From positions 1 to 29,948 of the IMG/VR virus record IMGVR_UViG_3300044949_000347: 29,948 bases of DNA; one strand, 5' to 3'. Below are positions 2,218 to 22,781 of this stretch, piece after piece. Source of the stretch: a virus. A program made the position numbers and the translations under genes. Under the pieces are notes generated by a model that worked only from the letters and a program-made list of their open reading frames with translations, made no database searches and was not told the DNA's origin. Position 1 is the first letter of the stretch. Every line of letters begins with the position of its first letter.

Positions 2218-3395
2218 ATTACCTGTCTGGTGTTTAGTAGTTGGAATTCTACGTCAATTTCTAGGTTGAATAACTTATCCGAAGCAGTTTTCTTTACCTC
2301 GTATGTGGTAGCGTTTGGCTTCACTGGTATCCATGAAGGAGTGATGTAGTTATCATTTACCAAATTTAAATATACCAAAGGGGAAGAATACAGTTCCCTG
2401 AGAAGTTCCGCCTGCACGTCATTAATGTAGTCCGAAATGATTCTCCAATTCTGAGTTTCCTTTGTAAAGTAGATAGGGTTAACGTTCTTTACCACTATCC
2501 CATTCGCCTCGTAAATATCCCCGTTATAGTTTCTCTCATAGCCCTTCTTTTCAATCTGAAAACTAGTCTTATTCACTAGGTCAAAGTTGAAGAAATCATA
2601 AACCCCGTACTTATTCAGGTAGGCTATGCGCATCGGATCGTACCTGCCACAGGATTGAGTATATAGGGTTGCAAATTTGTACCTCCTTGCTGAGCCGTTA
2701 TTCCAATTCACGAATAATTGAATAGATGCTACACTACCGCCATAGGTCAAAGGAGTGATCTGAATGTAAGTGATGTGTGGGCTAGTTACTACGGTAGGTG
2801 TAATGTAGTAGGTCTGAGTGGTAGCGTTATTGTATGTAACCAATAGTTCGACATTGGTCAAAAGACCTGTATTGATAAAGCCGAAAACCTGAGCATCGGT
2901 CTCTCTTAGTTTGATAGTATCCCATGCAGTCAAAGGCTTGTATACTGTGTTGCTAGATCCCCAATACTGAGCCTGTCCTGAGTACCAATTTTTCAACTCA
3001 AGCAAAGGCAAAGCACCTGCGAAAGCGTACTTAGTTTCACTCACTACTTCACTAGCCAAAACGATAACAAATTCCCCATCAACTTCGTAGTATTCGTAGC
3101 ACTTCAGGTAGTATCCCTTGATAGCATTCTTTGAACTTGAGGAAGTAGCAGTCTCATAGAACCCCTTGCTGTAGGTAAAGTCAACAGAGACGTACTTAGA
3201 GACATCGAACTCCACAGGATCTCCAGGATCAGCAGGTGAATCATAGTATGCAGTAGTGACTAGTTCATCATCTGAGTTATAAACTTTTACCACATACTTA
3301 AAACCGATCTCCTCAGAGTTCGTGCTGCTTATCGTGTAGTTAATCCGATTGAATGCCGGAAGGATGTCTATGCTTGGTTCTACTAGGGTTATCAT
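2214..3395 (-). CDS. Tail / baseplate structural protein (393 aa)
   Basis: A beta-rich protein with many Tyr, Asn and Thr residues and no membrane segment. Its N-terminus (near residues 10-60) resembles an Ig-like or fibronectin-like strand pattern. It is bracketed by the gp10-like neck gene and the 724-aa tail protein, joined to both by 4-nt ATGA overlaps, which points to coordinated expression with tail parts. No catalytic motif is visible. I call it a tail or baseplate component from position and composition; the domain family is not recognised. Confidence 0.6.
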   Translation of the reverse strand: MITLVEPSIDILPAFNRINYTISSTNSEEIGFKYVVKVYNSDDELVTTAYYDSPADPGDPVEFDVSKYVSVDFTYSKGFYETATSSSSKNAIKGYYLKCYEYYEVDGEFVIVLASEVVSETKYAFAGALPLLELKNWYSGQAQYWGSSNTVYKPLTAWDTIKLRETDAQVFGFINTGLLTNVELLVTYNNATTQTYYITPTVVTSPHITYIQITPLTYGGSVASIQLFVNWNNGSARRYKFATLYTQSCGRYDPMRIAYLNKYGVYDFFNFDLVNKTSFQIEKKGYERNYNGDIYEANGIVVKNVNPIYFTKETQNWRIISDYINDVQAELLRELYSSPLVYLNLVNDNYITPSWIPVKPNATTYEVKKTASDKLFNLEIDVEFQLLNTRQVI

Positions 3396-4012
3396 TTGCT
3401 TATTCTTAAAACGAGTGAATCACTTCCAATGGTTTGAATGTCGACATTGAATTCAGGTGTCGCTTCATCGATTGATTTCTTGATGAATTGCCGCCCTTCA
3501 ATACCATACTTTTTGATGTAGTATGCTAATCTTTTTGCACTTGTTGAAATCTGAGGTAGTACATTTCTGCCCTCTATCAGGTTAGTCGCCTCTATCTCCA
3601 TGTTCTTCCTCTGCATCCATCCTTGCAACTGCTGTAAGGCTTCAGGAGGCATTCCGTAGGTCTTGAATTGGTAGAACTTTCCCTGATCATTCTTGTAGGT
3701 CTTCCGCTTGTTTTGAATACCCCTTACCCCCTTATCTATGTAGTCTGCATAGTCTACCCCTATTCCAATCTCAAGCCTGTATCCGGTCTTTGTTTCCTTT
3801 ACCCCTATCACAGAAAAAGAGGAAGACAATCTACCTGAATCCGCAGGTGTATTTTTGGCTAGGTTTTCAACTATGTTGATGCCTAGTTTGGTCATGGCAT
3901 CACTCACGTTTTTGATTAACGTGCCTTCTACAGCAGCGACATATTCGCTAGGCTCAAGTTTCCTTCCGCCTATGTTTAAATTCGCTACTTGAGTTTTTGT
4001 TGCAACTGCCAT
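3392..4012 (-). CDS. HK97 gp10-like neck / tail-completion protein
   Basis: A protein of 206 aa with the pattern of the HK97 gp10 family. A helical N-terminus is followed by NTPADSGRLSSSF (near residues 54-66), then a beta strand ending in YADYIDKGVRG (near residues 87-97). Family members take part in head-tail joining or tail completion. The C-terminal half is longer than in minimal gp10 proteins and has a basic helical segment. The start overlaps the end of the frameshifted chaperone by 28 nt, and its stop overlaps the next gene by 4 nt. A chaperone-neck-tail order is usual in siphophages. Confidence 0.75.
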   Translation of the reverse strand: MAVATKTQVANLNIGGRKLEPSEYVAAVEGTLIKNVSDAMTKLGINIVENLAKNTPADSGRLSSSFSVIGVKETKTGYRLEIGIGVDYADYIDKGVRGIQNKRKTYKNDQGKFYQFKTYGMPPEALQQLQGWMQRKNMEIEATNLIEGRNVLPQISTSAKRLAYYIKKYGIEGRQFIKKSIDEATPEFNVDIQTIGSDSLVLRISK

Positions 4013-4251
4013 TTCTTTAGTTGTGCTTCTTTGTCCTTGTTGTAATCCTTCAAATATGCTAGGGTATTCAAGTACTCCACTACCCTCAAATCATAGGCAT
4101 CATTTACCTTTATGTTCTGGAAGTCTGCGACCTGCTTAGTGCTAAATACCCAGCCCCACCTTGCCATAAATCCACTACCTTCTTCGCCATCTCCTGATTC
4201 ACCATTGAGGAGGTTATGGTATTGCTTATTAATTCGCTGAATAATTGACAA
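3985..4251 (-). CDS. Tail assembly chaperone, -1 frameshift extension (gpGT-like C-terminus)
   Basis: This reading frame has no good start of its own. It is reached by a -1 slip at the T9 run from the upstream 200-aa frame, giving a fused product of about 242 aa (154 + 88). After the junction it reads LSIIQRINKQYHNLL, then an acidic linker, then WGWVFSTKQ and a helical, charged C-terminus ending KKWQLQQKLK. A Trp-Gly-Trp followed by a helical LNTLAYLKD-type tail is what I expect in the C-terminal part of Bacteroidota phage tail chaperones. The frame ends inside the gp10-like gene. Alternatively the homopolymer length is a sequencing error or mutation and the gene is one continuous frame. Confidence 0.65.
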   Translation of the reverse strand: MSIIQRINKQYHNLLNGESGDGEEGSGFMARWGWVFSTKQVADFQNIKVNDAYDLRVVEYLNTLAYLKDYNKDKEAQLKKWQLQQKLK

Positions 4252-9010: not shown

Positions 9011-10093
9011 TTAAATTTTTGAAAGCCATTGTAAATAAATTTCTGTAGCAATTTGTGCAGTCATTACTGGAGGCACAGACATTCCGATAAGGTAATGATA
9101 TTGAACTCCTTTAAAATTATAGTCTTGAGGATATGATCCAATACATGAACTTTCTATTTGATTAGGCTTTCTATATTCATCAAATAAATAAAATACATCT
9201 GCATTACTTGTGTATGTGTTAGGTGTTTCATTATAATATAAATAATAATTATTAAAGCAACTATGCCTATCTTCTACTCTTGTCAATGTATCTGCGAAAT
9301 TTTTATCTCCTTTTTTTCTTTGATTCCAATATTCAAACATTTTGCCTTTTGATGCTGGTCTATCATCTATACCATAAGTATAAAACTCTTTAAACTTTAT
9401 TTCAGGCTCTTTAAAATCTAAACCTAATTTAGGTAAAGATGTAAAGAAATCAACTTGCTCAAGGAAAGGATTTGCAAGATCTTTTCTCAAGCAAATAAAG
9501 AATACTCTTTCCCTTCTTTGTGGAACTCCCATTTTAGAAGCATCAAGTAGCCAATGCTGGCAATAGTATCCTGCCTGGTCAAACTCCTTATAAATCTTCT
9601 TAACATACTCAATAGCATTTCCTAGAAGTAAGCCTTTTACATTCTCAGCCACTACTACTTTTGGCTGCAGTTTTTTTGCTAGATCAATAAAATCAAAAAA
9701 CAAAGTATCAAGGACTTGATCAGCCTGGCCTTCTCTAAATTTCTTTTCCTTCCCCCAATCAGATTCCCTATTCCCTGCCATAGAAAATGAACTGCATGGA
9801 GGTGATCCATCTAGTATGTCAAGGTTATAAAGTTCTTCTGGAAGATCCTCTCTAAGTTTAAAGGTTTGAATACCCTCAAGAAAAGAATACTTTGGATTGT
9901 GATTAGCCTTATATGCTTCCATCATTTTAGGATCAATCTCATTGCATCCTAGTACATCAAAGCCGGCTAACTTGTAGCCCATTGTAGAGCCTCCACCACA
10001 GGCAAAGCATGAAAAAACTTTCCCTTTATCCTTAGTGAATACTGCATCCTTTAAATTCCATTTGTACGGGAATCTGTGCCTATTGTCTTTCAT
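9011..10093 (-). CDS. DNA (cytosine-5) methyltransferase
   Basis: A protein of 360 aa with all core motifs of C5 methylases in order: motif I FSCFACGGGSTMGYKLAGF (27-45) for S-adenosylmethionine binding, motif IV DGSPPCSSFS (95-104) with catalytic Cys100, motif VI ENVKGL (150-155) and motif VIII QRRERVFF (192-199). The C-terminal region (about 210-330) is the target-recognition part, followed by a motif X-like segment. It probably protects phage DNA from host restriction; no cognate endonuclease is nearby. The coding sequence looks more AT-rich than its neighbours, especially in the recognition region, suggesting later acquisition. Confidence 0.92.
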   Translation of the reverse strand: MKDNRHRFPYKWNLKDAVFTKDKGKVFSCFACGGGSTMGYKLAGFDVLGCNEIDPKMMEAYKANHNPKYSFLEGIQTFKLREDLPEELYNLDILDGSPPCSSFSMAGNRESDWGKEKKFREGQADQVLDTLFFDFIDLAKKLQPKVVVAENVKGLLLGNAIEYVKKIYKEFDQAGYYCQHWLLDASKMGVPQRRERVFFICLRKDLANPFLEQVDFFTSLPKLGLDFKEPEIKFKEFYTYGIDDRPASKGKMFEYWNQRKKGDKNFADTLTRVEDRHSCFNNYYLYYNETPNTYTSNADVFYLFDEYRKPNQIESSCIGSYPQDYNFKGVQYHYLIGMSVPPVMTAQIATEIYLQWLSKI

Positions 10094-14133: not shown

Positions 14134-14357
14134 TTGATTTCGTATGTTTTATTGTAGTATTCTTCACCTGATTCTTCTTTTGGATTGTCATTATGGTAGC
14201 CATAATCAAACCCCTCACAAATACCTTGATCGTAGGCATCAGTTATTTGCCGCTTTTCTTTTTTCTTTGCTTCATTTAAAATCATTTGCCAGGTAAATTT
14301 GTCTTTTGGTATTCCCCAAAGTTTTTCAAATAGGTAGTCTACTGCTGTCTTTTTCAT
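14130..14357 (-). CDS. Small early protein (75 aa)
   Basis: A helical N-terminus (TAVDYLFEKLWGIPKDKF) is followed by a charged helix (ILNEAKKKEKRQITDAYDQG) and an acidic Tyr-rich tail. The segment around the middle (EKxQIxDAYDQG) recurs in short proteins of Bacteroidota phages and prophages, from memory, without a known function. It overlaps Gp157 by 4 nt. Confidence 0.65.
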   Translation of the reverse strand: MKKTAVDYLFEKLWGIPKDKFTWQMILNEAKKKEKRQITDAYDQGICEGFDYGYHNDNPKEESGEEYYNKTYEIK

Positions 14358-14836
14358 TTGATTGATAGGTTAAAGTTTTCTACTAGTCTAGCACCCGTGA
14401 TAGAGTACCCTTCTTTGATTGCTTTTTTGATTGCTACTTTATCCGCTGTTATCGTGACCTTTTTCACCTGCCAATCTACCGGCAAAGCCTCTGGGATTTC
14501 TACCTCCACCGCCTCGGATCTTCTCAATGATATCTTGAATAGTGGGCTTTCTATCTTCTCTATTCCGCTTACTAGCATGGCCTTCTTTAGGCTTTCAGTT
14601 AGCCATGTAACCTTCTTATCCCTGCTTTCTTTCATTGCCTTGAGTCGCTTGATTTCGGCATCTATTTGATCCGCTTCGCTTTGATAGTTCGCTATCACCT
14701 TCGCATAGTTTATGCCTTTGCTTTGTAGTTGCTCCTGATTGATCAGCAATTCTGCTTCTAGTTCTGGAGTTAGTTCTTCGGTTTCAAGGAGGGCAGCCAA
14801 GTACTGCGCCTCCTGTGTCAATTGATACAAATTCAT
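14354..14836 (-). CDS. Gp157-family recombination-associated protein
   Basis: A protein of 160 aa with the siphovirus Gp157 layout. The long N-terminal coiled coil (about 1-85) contains repeated acidic helices and DAEIKRLKAMKESRD. A basic transition KKVTWLTESLKKAML follows, then a strand-rich C-terminus (FKISLRRSEAVEV, PVDWQVKKVTI) ending in GARLVENFNLSIK. Gp157 (PF05565) genes usually accompany ERF, as here with a 4-nt overlap. The role in recombination is not worked out; resistance-related annotations also exist for the family. Confidence 0.85.
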   Translation of the reverse strand: MNLYQLTQEAQYLAALLETEELTPELEAELLINQEQLQSKGINYAKVIANYQSEADQIDAEIKRLKAMKESRDKKVTWLTESLKKAMLVSGIEKIESPLFKISLRRSEAVEVEIPEALPVDWQVKKVTITADKVAIKKAIKEGYSITGARLVENFNLSIK

Positions 14837-15384
14837 AGTAGTCCTTCGATTATTTCTTTTTGATCATTTGTCAATGTGTATTTTTTTAGTGCCTCCTTGG
14901 CTGTTTTTTGCTGATATGGAGATCCGTTCAAGTACTGTACTATTCCTGCGAATTGATCTTCTGTAGGTGCTACCTTTGCAGGTGCAGGTGCTTGTCTCAA
15001 AGGCTTCATTGCTGCCTCGGCATCATCATCTGAAATGGCTAGATTCAGCACGCTTGTGATAGCATATCTCCTTGCATAACTGATAGCACTACCTTGAGCC
15101 TGTGGATCGTTCTGCCTTACTACTTGCAAGGTGTAGGTAGCAGAGATAAACTCACCGCTATCCGCGTGAATTAACATAGTGGTAAGCCCATCCCCATTAG
15201 GGAACTGAGATAGGACTAGCCCTGCCTTTTCCAATGGCTCTGCTATCTCTGTAATGATATGAGGAAGGCTTGCATAATTGGACTTGAAGAAGGGGTTCTT
15301 TGCATCCTTTGAAATGCGCCCAACCATAGCGTGAAACTTGGCTAGGGATTGGGTAAGGTTTTGGATTGAATTTGATTTCTCCAT
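14833..15384 (-). CDS. erf: ERF-family single-strand annealing protein
   Basis: A protein of 183 aa showing the ERF signature. An N-terminal helix leads to SKDAKNPFFKSNYASLP (about residues 25-41), then LPHIITEIAEPLEKAGLVL, and GSAISYARRYAITSVLNL with the following DDDAE (about 97-121). ERF proteins anneal complementary ssDNA during phage recombination and genome circularisation. The C-terminal 55 residues are a variable linker and a short helix. The A-rich leader contains a run of ACAAACAAACC before the ATG with no Shine-Dalgarno site. Confidence 0.92.
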   Translation of the reverse strand: MEKSNSIQNLTQSLAKFHAMVGRISKDAKNPFFKSNYASLPHIITEIAEPLEKAGLVLSQFPNGDGLTTMLIHADSGEFISATYTLQVVRQNDPQAQGSAISYARRYAITSVLNLAISDDDAEAAMKPLRQAPAPAKVAPTEDQFAGIVQYLNGSPYQQKTAKEALKKYTLTNDQKEIIEGLL

Positions 15385-15403: not shown

Positions 15404-15670
15404 TTAGTAATTGCGTTCTATTTGTATTTCTAATTCCATGAGGATCGAAGCAGTAGGCTTGACCTCCACCACCTTCTCAAGATCTTCATCATAATATGAT
15501 AGGCTAGTAGTGTGATCTATGCTGATCTCCATTTCGCCATAGGCAGGAGCAAATTCGCTTTCATCTTCTCCTGTGTGTTCGATAGTGTAGTCTCCTTGCC
15601 AGACGTACTCCCTACCTTCGTAGGTGAATTCGATTTCTTGATCGTAGAAATTTTCTGTTTCGTAGTTCAT
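15404..15670 (-). CDS. Acidic early protein (88 aa) downstream of the ribozyme
   Basis: A strongly acidic, strand-rich protein (YETENFYDQEIEFTYEGREY, later EFAPAYGEMEISIDHTTS) without cysteines or membrane segments. Its ATG is 22 nt downstream of the predicted hammerhead cleavage site. The leader after cleavage would be short and A-rich. Acidic phage early proteins sometimes mimic DNA or block host nucleases. That is only a possibility here; no family is recognised. Confidence 0.6.
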   Translation of the reverse strand: MNYETENFYDQEIEFTYEGREYVWQGDYTIEHTGEDESEFAPAYGEMEISIDHTTSLSYYDEDLEKVVEVKPTASILMELEIQIERNY

Positions 15671-15686
15671 TGGTTTTTTGGTCTAT

Positions 15687-15738
15687 GGTTAAGACTGCCT
15701 TTCGGCAGTTTCGTCTATTCAAGACTCATCAGTTAACC
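15687..15738 (-). ncRNA. Hammerhead ribozyme (type I)
   Basis: On the minus strand, stem I 5' side GGTTAA (15738-15733) is followed by CTGATGA (15732-15726). Stem II is GTCT / AGAC with a TGAAT loop (15725-15713), then GAAA (15712-15709). Stem III is CTGCC / GGCAG with a GAAA loop (15708-15695), then TC (15694-15693), and stem I 3' side is TTAACC (15692-15687). Every conserved core base of the family is present, with the A15.1-U16.1 pair, the G10.1-C11.1 closing pair and a cleavable C17. Cleavage falls between 15693 and 15692. The open stem is stem I, so type I. It fills the gap between two early genes; the upstream stop codon ends just before stem I. Confidence 0.92.
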
Positions 15739-16050
15739 TTATGCAATCCAATCTGATATGCTTCCTCCGTATGACCAATCATTAGCATCACAAAACTGCT
15801 TCCATTCTGACCAAAATTTATTGCTCTTTTTGTCATAGCCTCCATTCATTAATTCTAAAGCATCTGATGCTTCATTGAATGCCTTAGTGTAGCATATATA
15901 GTCCCAAGAATATCCAGAATAAAGTAGGTTTCTACAAGTATTTGATCTTCTAGCAATTATTAGTAGCGTTTTGATAAACTCAGGATTTTTCACTTCTGAT
16001 TTCTCAATCATTACTTCGAATTTTGATTTGATGTCTATCCAGTTTGCCAT
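15739..16050 (-). CDS. First gene of the early operon, unknown (103 aa)
   Basis: Helical protein beginning MANWIDIKSKFEVMIEKSEV, with AFNEASDALELMNGGYD in the middle and a Trp-rich end (FWSEWKQFCDANDWSYGG). It is the gene nearest the promoter candidate at 16092-16122, and the hammerhead ribozyme follows its stop directly. Cleavage would separate its message from the rest of the operon. No known family is recognised. Confidence 0.6.
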   Translation of the reverse strand: MANWIDIKSKFEVMIEKSEVKNPEFIKTLLIIARRSNTCRNLLYSGYSWDYICYTKAFNEASDALELMNGGYDKKSNKFWSEWKQFCDANDWSYGGSISDWIA

Positions 16051-16091
16051 GATTTTTTTAGTTTTTGGTTTTATGTCCCTGTTTGATGAAT

Positions 16092-16122
16092 CAAATATCG
16101 AAGGAAAAAATTAGAAAAAAAA
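16092..16122 (-). promoter_or_regulatory. Early promoter candidate, copy 1 of a conserved element
   Basis: On the minus strand the -7 box GATATTTG (16092-16099) follows a 19-nt spacer behind TTTT (16119-16122), a weak -33. The spacer and flank match the 13658-13688 element closely (AGGAA-AAATTAGAAAA in the plus sense in both). A/T tracts lie upstream. It would start the leftward early transcript about 35 nt before the ATG at 16050. No convincing rightward promoter is visible in the remaining 16123-16204. Confidence 0.6.
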
Positions 16123-16204
16123 ATATTTATGAAAAAATTTTACACAAAAAGTGAGATTTTTTTCGAGTGTGCTTTTTTATGGTTATAACTTGCAAAAAAA
16201 AACT

Positions 16205-16456
16205 ATGCAAGAATCAGAAATCATTAACCCCTTCGGATACGGCAGAGCCTCTAAGATCATGGATGAAAACCGCAAGCCTGCTGAGTGGTGGGTAGACTAC
16301 ATCCAATTCAATGAGGTAGTATCTGAGAATGAGTTTTACATTCTTTTTGAGGATGGCTTCCTTATCAAGAAGGGAAGGTCAAAGTTCCAATCAAGTCAAT
16401 ACCTCAAAGGGGATAGGTTTAAAACTTTCAAGGAGTGCCATGAGTCAGAGATCTAG
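16205..16456 (+). CDS. Unknown protein, first gene of the plus-strand operon (83 aa)
   Basis: Started at ATG 16205 after an A9 leader. An in-frame GTG at 16151 would add residues encoded by the promoter region, so I do not use it. The protein reads MQESEIINPFGYGRASKIMD, with WWVDYIQFNEV in the middle and FKTFKECHESEI at the end. It is mixed alpha/beta, has no membrane segment and belongs to no family I know. Its end overlaps the next short gene by 17 nt. Confidence 0.6.
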   Translation: MQESEIINPFGYGRASKIMDENRKPAEWWVDYIQFNEVVSENEFYILFEDGFLIKKGRSKFQSSQYLKGDRFKTFKECHESEI

Positions 16457-20184: not shown

Positions 20185-20778
20185 TTAGAATGGTTTTTTG
20201 TATCTGTTCCCTTGGTATCTTTCGCTGTATGGTCTGTGATCTTCATAGTCCCCACGGCCTAGATTGATAGCCACCTTGTACTGATTGCTCACAGGTTGGA
20301 TAGTAGTGACATCACTACCAGGATTCAAGTACTCAGGGTATAGGGTAGAGTTCGCACATAGGTAATTGATAGCCCGTTCTGCGTACCATTCTGCATATCC
20401 CTTGTAGTATTGACTAATGCTCTGCAATTCAGCAAAGGTAGGCTCTGTGATGTTCTCGCTTTTGCGCTTCACTACCCCTTTATTCACGAACTTGTACTGC
20501 ATTGCCATTGGCAATTCACCTAGGACATAGTTAAAAAGTGTATCTGTAAGGTAACTATCTAGCAAAGTCTTGTAGACTGCATTCCCTCCTTGACCTATAG
20601 TACCTGCCACTATCAAAGAGAGGATCTTATCATAAAGCGCAGTCCCGCAGATAGGATGTATATACCTATCTTGAGTCATCTTAATCACCTGAGTGACATT
20701 CTTCAGGTCAATATTTGCGGAGGCTACCGTGAAATCCTTGAAGGATTGTTCCGATATCATTAAAACATTTGCGCTCAT
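20185..20778 (-). CDS. Head-tail connector (adaptor) protein
   Basis: The start is taken at the ATG at 20778, which shares bases with the portal stop (TAATG), giving 197 aa. An upstream start would add 12 residues and a 37-nt overlap. The protein is helical: SEQSFKDFTVASANIDLKN, then QDRYIHPICGTALYDKIL, LLDSYLTDTLFNYVLGELP and a helix with YAERAINYLCAN. These resemble phage adaptor proteins (HK97 gp6 or DUF6712-like) that attach under the portal. The position directly after the portal agrees. Confidence 0.7.
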   Translation of the reverse strand: MSANVLMISEQSFKDFTVASANIDLKNVTQVIKMTQDRYIHPICGTALYDKILSLIVAGTIGQGGNAVYKTLLDSYLTDTLFNYVLGELPMAMQYKFVNKGVVKRKSENITEPTFAELQSISQYYKGYAEWYAERAINYLCANSTLYPEYLNPGSDVTTIQPVSNQYKVAINLGRGDYEDHRPYSERYQGNRYKKPF

Positions 20779-22781
20779 TATGATGTCTTTTCTACTACTA
20801 CATTTCTTTTCCACTCATGTCTGCAGAATGGAGTTCTTCTGCCCGTGTTTGGATTGGTGTACCATCCGCCACAAAGTTGAAATACGCTATAGCCTAACTG
20901 ATTGGATATGTTTTGAATCTCTTCTCTGGTAAAGAATAGCCCACTTCCGTACAACTTCTCGCACAAAGGTCTAGATCCGCTCTTTGCTGCCGGTACGTTT
21001 GGTCTTTCCTCATAGGAATAAAGCACCTTGAAGGAAGTCACAGGCTCAAGTCTTTTGATTGCTGCATCTCCTGTACGGGTTACCGATCTAGTGATCAAGC
21101 CTTCACGGCTAATCTTCTCTACTAGCACCTGATCATCTATCAAAGTATTGATTCTTGAGATCACGGAAGCCTCATCTATGCCTACAGCCTTGGCAATTTG
21201 CGGAATGGTCACAGCCTCATTTCTTTGAATCTGAGTGATAATCTTTTTCTGCACCTCATTGAGTAGGTACTCAGCAAATAGATCCTGCTTGATGAAGTCT
21301 TCCATGCTTGAGAAGTGCATCTTTGAAGATTCAATTACCTTGAATTTATCCTTTGATATCCCTTTGCCTTCAAACTTTTTAAGGATGTCTGCATCGTGTT
21401 CTGAGATACTACACTCAAGGTGTAGGTGATCGGAGAAAGCAGCAGCAGGTTCTGTAGCAATTTGTTCTGGAGTAGTAATATCAGTCCTTACAGGTAGACC
21501 AATCAATCCCCTCAATTCATTCACATCCATAGACTCAACTACCTTAGTAGCAATCAATGGGGAAAGGCTGTTCAAAGAGTTGATGATATCCTGTGCGCCT
21601 TGACTTTCTTTCTTCTCGATTGGAGCAAGTCCCAACTTCTCACGGATTTCATCCTGTGTCATGTTGGTAGAAATAATCTGCTCACTAAATTGAAAAGCAA
21701 TAGGCTCAGTTTTCTTGATCTCAAGTTCTGCTACGATATCATTAAACTTCAGAAGGTAATTCACTACCTCTTCAAGGCTTTGCTGCTTTGCGTTTACATA
21801 GGTGTTTTGGAATAGTTCGGATGCTTCCCGAAGTTCTGCTCTGCCACCTAATTGACCTTCTGTTTTAACCCCGAAAAGCATAGGGCTAGTCACCTTATGA
21901 CCGGTAAAAATCTCCTGCTGTACAGTCTTATTTAGTAGGTCGAAATGCTTGTCTAATTCAGTACCCGATAGGTCTACTATTGAAGGCTCGTTTTCTTTGC
22001 TATCATTGAAAGCAAGCATGAATTTTCCTGCGTTCTTTGACCCTGAGAATTTATCCTTGAATTGTCTCTCAATTCGATCCTCTTCCTCTTGGCTTACCTT
22101 ACCCCCATTCAAGTTGATTAACTTGCTTGAGAACATTCCATTGTTTATGGTGTTCAGGTGGTATTCCCCGATAGAGATGTCTAGTTCAATGTAGGAAATA
22201 GCCCCTCTGTAATCAGGTAGGGAGTAGGTATTTGCCCCTGCTCTGTATTCTTTAAAGTATAGGATCTGTGTGCCTGTAGTGTTATTAGGATCGAATGCAG
22301 GATAAGTCTCAAAATCAGGTCTTGGATTTACGTTATCGTTCTTGATCCAATTATCCGAAACGTAGAATTCACTATTGTCTAGGTTCGTTCTAACCTTGTA
22401 GTAGTCAACGTGATAAAGTTCTGCAATTTCACCGGTGCCTTTTGTCCAGATTACCTGAAGATAGTAGCCTCCAAAAATAGATAAATCGGTAACAAGTTTT
22501 TTAGTCAACTCATTAAGGCTTTCATCCTTGGTGTTGATTCGATCAATCAAGCCGAATGCTTTCGCCTTCTGCATTTCATCTTCTGCCTTGACAGTCCAAC
22601 CATTACCACAGATGTAGTCGACCTTGCCTGTTATAATAGCGTTATTCTTTGCGCTATTGTTGTAGATCCGCAGTAGGTAGTTTGGGTAGTCATTCTTTTC
22701 CCCGTAGTAAACGTATTCTTTCCCTTTTACTTCTTTGTAAACGGGTAGAGGAACTTGATCGAACTTAAATAACTTTATCAT
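20778..22781 (-). CDS. Portal protein with extra C-terminal domains
   Basis: A protein of 667 aa. Residues about 1-390 are the portal body: GEKNDYPNYLLRIYNNSAKN near 27-46, ICGNGW at 57-62, LSIFGGYYLQVIW near 100-112, and the wing or stem around residues 285-345 (GHKVTSPMLFGVKTEGQLGG). The portal forms the dodecameric DNA channel at a capsid vertex. After a linker, residues about 510-570 look like a winged helix. Residues about 603-660 form a small Cys/His unit (RPLCEKLYGSGLFFTREEI, then CGGWY and PFCRHEWK) like one seen at the end of minor head proteins. The extra 200 residues are longer than a minimal portal. Confidence 0.85.
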   Translation of the reverse strand: MIKLFKFDQVPLPVYKEVKGKEYVYYGEKNDYPNYLLRIYNNSAKNNAIITGKVDYICGNGWTVKAEDEMQKAKAFGLIDRINTKDESLNELTKKLVTDLSIFGGYYLQVIWTKGTGEIAELYHVDYYKVRTNLDNSEFYVSDNWIKNDNVNPRPDFETYPAFDPNNTTGTQILYFKEYRAGANTYSLPDYRGAISYIELDISIGEYHLNTINNGMFSSKLINLNGGKVSQEEEDRIERQFKDKFSGSKNAGKFMLAFNDSKENEPSIVDLSGTELDKHFDLLNKTVQQEIFTGHKVTSPMLFGVKTEGQLGGRAELREASELFQNTYVNAKQQSLEEVVNYLLKFNDIVAELEIKKTEPIAFQFSEQIISTNMTQDEIREKLGLAPIEKKESQGAQDIINSLNSLSPLIATKVVESMDVNELRGLIGLPVRTDITTPEQIATEPAAAFSDHLHLECSISEHDADILKKFEGKGISKDKFKVIESSKMHFSSMEDFIKQDLFAEYLLNEVQKKIITQIQRNEAVTIPQIAKAVGIDEASVISRINTLIDDQVLVEKISREGLITRSVTRTGDAAIKRLEPVTSFKVLYSYEERPNVPAAKSGSRPLCEKLYGSGLFFTREEIQNISNQLGYSVFQLCGGWYTNPNTGRRTPFCRHEWKRNVVVEKTS

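Follow-up and report, generated by a model that had tools for sequence, protein, structure and literature searches.

Hammerhead ribozymes of phages have been proposed to process transcripts to the length of an operon or a single gene (Perreault et al. 2011, PMC3088659). Prophage hammerheads cleave in vitro, and a set from A. tumefaciens also does so in E. coli; no cleavage in vitro was seen for 4 of 18 consensus hammerheads (Perreault et al., PMC3088659). In the haloviruses HF1 and HF2, an early polycistronic transcript carries a hammerhead immediately ahead of its first ORF, and the 5' end of the transcript maps no more than 3 nt from the cleavage site (PMC3088659). The Theta ribozymes of gut phages (PMC10879173) are also self-cleaving RNAs in phage genomes, but they have an HDV-like fold and are associated with tRNAs, whereas the RNA described below is a hammerhead. 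What purpose hammerheads serve in phages is listed as an open question in a 2017 review (PMC6155905).

We analyzed a 29,948-nucleotide virus record from IMG/VR (IMGVR_UViG_3300044949_000347), here called the window. A reading of this DNA from its letters, the sequence-only reading, had claimed a type I hammerhead with a complete core, stems of 6, 4, and 5 bp, and C17 at 15693, fitted between a stop codon and a start codon so that a 22-nt leader would remain on the downstream gene. Each of these elements is present as described. Written 5' to 3' on the minus strand (15738 to 15687), the motif is GGTTAA-CTGATGA-GTCT(TGAAT)AGAC-GAA-ACTGCC(GAAA)GGCAGT-C-TTAACC, in which every core position is matched (C3 U4 G5 A6 N7 G8 A9, G12 A13 A14, A15.1-U16.1, and H17); the A15.1-U16.1 pair comes on top of the 5 bp of stem III, and stem I is open. 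The UAA of the 103-aa gene (15741-15739) abuts the motif, and positions 15692-15671 precede the ATG of the 88-aa gene at 15670. The elements, all on the minus strand, are as follows, with their basis in parentheses.

15687..15738, minus strand: the whole type I hammerhead ribozyme (sequence, fold, covariance model)
15739, minus strand: one A of the conserved A-A mismatch, also the last base of the stop codon of the 103-aa gene (family comparison)
15733..15738, minus strand: stem I, 5' strand GGTTAA (partner strand 15687-15692)
15726..15732, minus strand: core CUGAUGA, C3 to A9 (sequence)
15713..15725, minus strand: stem II, GTCT/AGAC, with the pentaloop TGAAT of the U-N-A-N-U type (sequence, family comparison)
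15710..15712, minus strand: core GAA, G12 A13 A14 (sequence)
15694..15709, minus strand: stem III, ACTGCC(GAAA)GGCAGT, including A15.1-U16.1 (sequence, fold)
15693, minus strand: C17, with predicted cleavage between 15693 and 15692 (sequence and established hammerhead chemistry)
15687..15692, minus strand: stem I, 3' strand TTAACC, the would-be 5' end of the downstream mRNA (sequence)
15686, minus strand: the other A of the A-A mismatch (family comparison)
15671..15692, minus strand: the 22-nt leader predicted on the 88-aa gene once the RNA is cut (sequence)

The segment 15681-15741 folds with an energy of -17 kcal/mol (z = -3.98). The mean probability of the predicted pairs is 0.95 for the isolated ribozyme, 0.59 to 0.84 when it is flanked on both sides, and 0.46 in a nascent RNA that ends at the ribozyme. 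Dinucleotide-preserving shuffles of the window (20,560 of them, 616 Mb on both strands) reached stems of 6/4/6 with loops of any size in only 2 hits. We built a covariance model from 41 relatives, leaving out the window copy; it scores the motif at 77.5 bits (E = 9.5e-19) as its sole match within the window, and a search of the window for further hammerheads of types I, II, and III found none besides 15687-15738.

At the gathering score, an Rfam search of the window returned no match. The hammerhead models, which the sequence-only reading had proposed as a check, do match the motif, but below their thresholds. With relaxed limits, RF00163 (Hammerhead_1) reaches 24.5 bits (E = 4.8e-4), short of its gathering score of 34 bits, so the motif is not to be filed as a member of RF00163, although 34 bits is the curators' threshold and no feature of the class. 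We rejected assignment to RAGATH-1-hammerhead (RF03152), which scores 30.5 bits against a gathering score of 56.3 and has its 5' hairpin mismatched and placed inside the 103-aa ORF. These subthreshold scores are what would favor a chance resemblance. That explanation is scarcely credible, being refuted by the shuffles, by the leave-one-out model hit, and by the selection on core and stems documented below; moreover, a whole covarying subfamily is likewise subthreshold, with 12 loci holding about 40 copies that give no hammerhead match at the Rfam gathering score. The element at 15687-15738 is almost certainly a real type I hammerhead, and probably an active one.

Among described systems, the clustered prophage hammerheads (A. 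tumefaciens ardA, C. scindens, A. caulinodans) resemble the window copy in lying on the sense strand between genes and in their proposed role. The window copy indeed sits on the sense strand between genes of one transcription unit, the criterion used by Perreault et al. 2011. It differs in being a single copy within an inserted cassette, in a 30-kb record that may be a fragment, and in combining an A-A mismatch with a U-N-A-N-U loop II and a stem I that recurs across a genome and is linked to a leader motif. Relatives of the window ribozyme elsewhere form arrays, as the prophage clusters do. The hammerhead of HF1 and HF2 (HHphage) also lies a few nucleotides before an early-gene start codon, but it has a variant core and precedes the first ORF, whereas the window ribozyme has a gene before it. 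The Schistosoma mansoni type I hammerhead (RF00163) shares the topology, the core, the 6-bp stem I, and the 4-bp stem II, the tertiary contact being a predicted one in our case; the RF00163 consensus has a hexaloop II, as opposed to the pentaloop UGAAU of the window, and the S. mansoni ribozyme resides in satellite DNA instead of a phage operon. The suggestion that splitting an operon in this way would be a notable novelty is weakened by Perreault et al. 2011, who propose the same processing and describe the HF1/HF2 case. What is new, as judged by comparing sequences, is a putative tertiary lock, the link between a genome-wide stem I and a leader motif, and a polymorphism between cassette and empty site.

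We searched IMG/VR with a pattern of the core and part of stem II, which occurs in at least 120 stretches, and all three stems form in 115 of the loci listed. Setting stem I to GGTTAA/TTAACC in a second pattern likewise gave at least 120 stretches. From the loci examined, we collected 288 distinct type I copies. Cultured phages yielded nothing comparable: a blastn search of the 58-nt ribozyme against 50,697 cultured or deposited phage records returned only short fragments (E >= 1), the 2.1-kb region had no DNA match among cultured phages, and the 88-aa gene had no relatives there. A search of bacterial genomes with the strict pattern found none, and among GTDB genomes the GGTTAA form is found in 3 MAG contigs only. 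The hammerhead of the window is part of an abundant, little-catalogued phage subfamily that sits between small genes. Since this form is common and about 40 of its copies are missed at the gathering score, current Rfam models miss it.

Two variants were encountered in the same searches. Eight loci hold a second form, with stem I CTGTCT/AGACAG, a GTAG tetraloop II, and a distal mismatch that is mostly U-C; its sequence is near-invariant across contigs, in contrast to the GGTTAA form. Seven other contigs, which have terminase genes in common with the window, carry hammerheads of the GGTTAA form in which stem III is long and rich in A+T (ATAAAGGCCC...).

We evaluated selection in 26 orthologous copy pairs picked by flank similarity alone, which avoids the stem requirement built into our scanner. 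Across the 12 core positions, only 2 of 312 comparisons showed a change, as opposed to 623 of 3,844 in the flanks (p = 3e-20). Changes in the stems comprised 31 two-sided compensations, 17 one-sided changes that kept the pair, and 9 that broke it. Counts from a larger alignment agree, with 100% pairing that is partly built in since the scanner selected for stems. Such a pattern of change is that expected of RNAs kept for cleavage. The compensatory stem conservation anticipated by the sequence-only reading thus holds across the subfamily, where the core is frozen, but no orthologue of the window copy itself was found.

The same reading had suggested that an A-A mismatch above stem I, followed by two more pairs, could supply the loop contact that natural ribozymes need. 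A part for the mismatch in such a contact is supported statistically. Among the 254 copies whose stem I has 6 bp, 215 carry an A on each side immediately past that stem, and the window copy combines this mismatch with the loop II UGAAU. When stem II has 4 bp, the A-A mismatch occurs with a pentaloop in 168 copies and a tetraloop in 9, whereas among copies with other mismatches (mostly U-U, U-C, and C-U) tetraloops outnumber pentaloops by 30 to 3 (Fisher p = 5e-25, uncorrected for common descent). All of the A-A pentaloops have U at both ends, and 152 of the 168 have a central A. The coupling supports a stem I/loop II tertiary lock that would involve the A-A mismatch. The further pairs are ruled out as a family feature by their near-chance frequencies (62 of 254 relatives at positions -2/+2 and 86 of 254 at -3/+3).

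The placement of the copies among genes is regular. A long frame ending at the ribozyme with the next start no more than 150 nt downstream was found in 223 of 288 cases in the sense orientation and in 64 of 288 in the antisense orientation, and the cleavage site lies a median of 24 nt from the start codon (288 copies). The flanking genes are small (median 80 and 87 aa) and mostly without a Pfam family. Most copies have the stop codon at stem I or within it, with a median offset of +1 nt; in L260, a distant relative of the window where a copy matching the window copy in stems I and II follows a different gene, the UAA is within stem I. A ribosome terminating at the abutting stop codon could hold the ribozyme open. 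This proximity is what would favor regulated cleavage, in which ribosomes stopping beside stem I keep the ribozyme open and so tie the extent of cutting to the translation of the cassette gene, or in which a ligand or protein sets it. We consider such regulation very improbable, as the tight packing of stop codon and ribozyme may be mere compactness and the window copy has no ligand-like domain.

All copies are on one strand in each of the 62 multicopy loci, with a median spacing of 583 nt, and whole records hold up to nine copies each. Stem I sequences are 0.39 identical between contigs and 0.80 within a contig, and none of 2,000 label permutations reached the latter value. The corresponding values are 0.60 and 0.50 for stem III and 0.55 and 0.61 for stem II, the between-contig value of stem II being inflated by the search pattern. 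Recent duplication as the source of the shared stem I is disfavored, since the other two stems of these copies show no, or only slightly, greater similarity than between contigs. Among the arrays are five loci from five genomes that carry four to nine type I hammerheads on the same strand with the same or a similar stem I.

The 3' strand of stem I recurs in leaders that have no ribozyme. In contigs with TTAACC ribozymes, TTAACC was seen 44 times at 12 to 32 nt before ribozyme-free starts, with about 6 expected, and among ribozyme-free relatives of the 88-aa gene it preceded starts 23 times, with about 3 expected. The excess is weak in genomes with other stem I sequences (14 versus 5.5 to 7.4), so that the leader motif accounts for the stem I sharing only in part. 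Most simply read, the motif is the older element, to which the 5' strand of the ribozyme is fitted. Ribozymes of the subfamily would split one long message into mRNAs with similar short starts. As individual cases, we noted TTAACC about 20 to 25 nt ahead of ribozyme-less starts in five loci and in the leaders of three others. A stem I common to all copies in a genome might also let any cut upstream RNA capture any leader. We regard it as a long shot that the ribozymes are interchangeable in this sense, with free GGUUAA ends that bear a cyclic phosphate ligating any 5'-OH-UUAACC leader, so that mRNAs are partly rejoined in new orders, or with the shared sequence serving as a common 5' tag recognized by phage or host factors.

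The locus itself is organized as follows.

16065..16210, minus strand: presumed promoter region of the operon (the promoter itself is a prediction)
15739..16050, minus strand: 103-aa cassette gene, absent from relatives at the same site (annotation, comparison)
15681..16064, minus strand: 384-bp insert relative to locus L129, containing the 103-aa gene, the ribozyme, and the leader (alignment)
15404..15670, minus strand: 88-aa downstream gene, with 64 relatives (annotation, similarity)
14833..15384, minus strand: ERF-type single-stranded-DNA annealing protein (annotation)
14354..14836, minus strand: Gp157/Mu Gam-like protein (annotation)

Neither the 103-aa gene nor the 88-aa gene has a Pfam, PHROG, or PADLOC family. 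The former has a single weak relative, in L294 (35% over 54 aa), where no ribozyme was found; relatives of the latter occur in 64 loci and are up to 100% identical. No ribozyme was found upstream of the 88-aa gene in any of the 62 readable flanks or elsewhere in the 64 records. A region like 16065-16210 lies directly before the 88-aa gene in four relatives. One of these, L129, aligns with the window on either side of 15681-16064, and the two alignments overlap by about 11 nt of A-rich leader. Overall, the promoter region directly precedes the gene in 14 of the 62 readable relatives, a small ORF with a UUCG/GAAA hairpin intervenes in 27, and a small ORF without a hairpin intervenes in 21. The hairpins lie between the variable small ORF and the 88-aa gene; we observed GCCC-UUCG-GGGC-UUU or CCCC-GAAA-GGGG at the place of the ribozyme in those 27 relatives. 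Simple scans of the interval between the 103-aa and 88-aa genes found neither a terminator-like site nor a second promoter of the relaxed TTTG/TAnnTTTG type, and an intrinsic terminator was rejected for want of a T run after the ribozyme stem. Elsewhere in the window are a C-5 cytosine DNA methylase (9011-10093, minus strand) and a portal protein ORF (20778-22781, minus strand) with a C-terminal winged-helix match to HTH_24, unusual for a portal; the related contig L260 carries a 533-aa ORF (2595-4196, plus strand) that reads like a GroEL-type chaperonin.

By these comparisons, the putative ribozyme is an arrival with the 103-aa gene as an insert, and the promoter-proximal slot is a cassette site, with the ribozyme one of several things found at cassette ends. 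The claim that the ribozyme separates the first gene from the ERF/Gp157 operon stands as to position, but not as to conservation with those genes. It belongs to the inserted 103-aa cassette and is no fixed operon-splitting device of the ERF/Gp157 module, since relatives keep the 88-aa gene yet lack the ribozyme. By the condition that the sequence-only reading had set for its own refutation, the element is therefore dispensable for the module; this speaks against a role conserved with these genes, though not against its being active as a ribozyme.

The hairpins found at exactly the same place in 27 of 62 relatives raise the idea that the element is a 3'-end stabilizer or mild insulator, for which structure matters, as for the GCCC-UUCG-GGGC hairpins, and cleavage is incidental. 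This is improbable, as a plain hairpin would not hold C3-A9, G12-A14, A15.1-U16.1, and a pyrimidine or A at position 17 while its stems vary, and the missing T run speaks against it as well. The empty site raises another alternative, that the ribozyme travels as a passenger with the cassette: it would cleave, and would serve the cassette through a defined 3' terminus and a portable junction, but would have little effect on the core genes; the junction would recombine into A-rich or TTAACC leaders. The 384-bp insert with a leader repeat at both ends, the ribozyme-free 88-aa relatives, the small hypothetical ORFs that flank the copies, and the TTAACC leaders without ribozymes all fit this account. 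We nonetheless judge it unlikely, because strong purifying selection, acting on the core and the stems throughout the subfamily, indicates that cleavage is retained for a reason in many places, and because the regular order of stop codon, ribozyme, 24 nt, and start codon would be left unexplained.

We consider it quite probable that the element is a functional hammerhead that accompanies an accessory gene and whose cutting separates the cassette message from the core message, and an operon-splitting ribozyme is the likely description at this locus. A transcript from a promoter near 16.1 kb would run through the 103-aa gene and the ribozyme into the 88-aa, ERF, and Gp157 genes, and the RNA would cut itself between C15693 and U15692. 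General hammerhead chemistry yields a 2',3'-cyclic phosphate and a 5'-OH. The upstream message would thus have the folded ribozyme as its 3' end, closed by a 2',3'-cyclic phosphate and placed directly behind the stop codon, and the downstream message would begin with 5'-OH-UUAACC, 22 nt ahead of the ATG. Stability and translation of the cassette gene may in this way be decoupled from the core recombination module, and the core genes would keep a short leader resembling that of their insert-free relatives. Since the ribozyme is a singleton that is absent from all relatives of the downstream gene, any benefit to this phage is conjectural.

Because the Rfam models miss a common phage form, surveys that use them undercount hammerheads. 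The phages described here provide a natural experiment, in which the same gene neighborhood occurs with a ribozyme, a plain hairpin, or nothing, arrays extend to nine copies, and stem I tracks a leader motif found throughout the genome. This set lets one ask whether cleavage separates the stability and translation of cassette mRNA from those of core mRNA.
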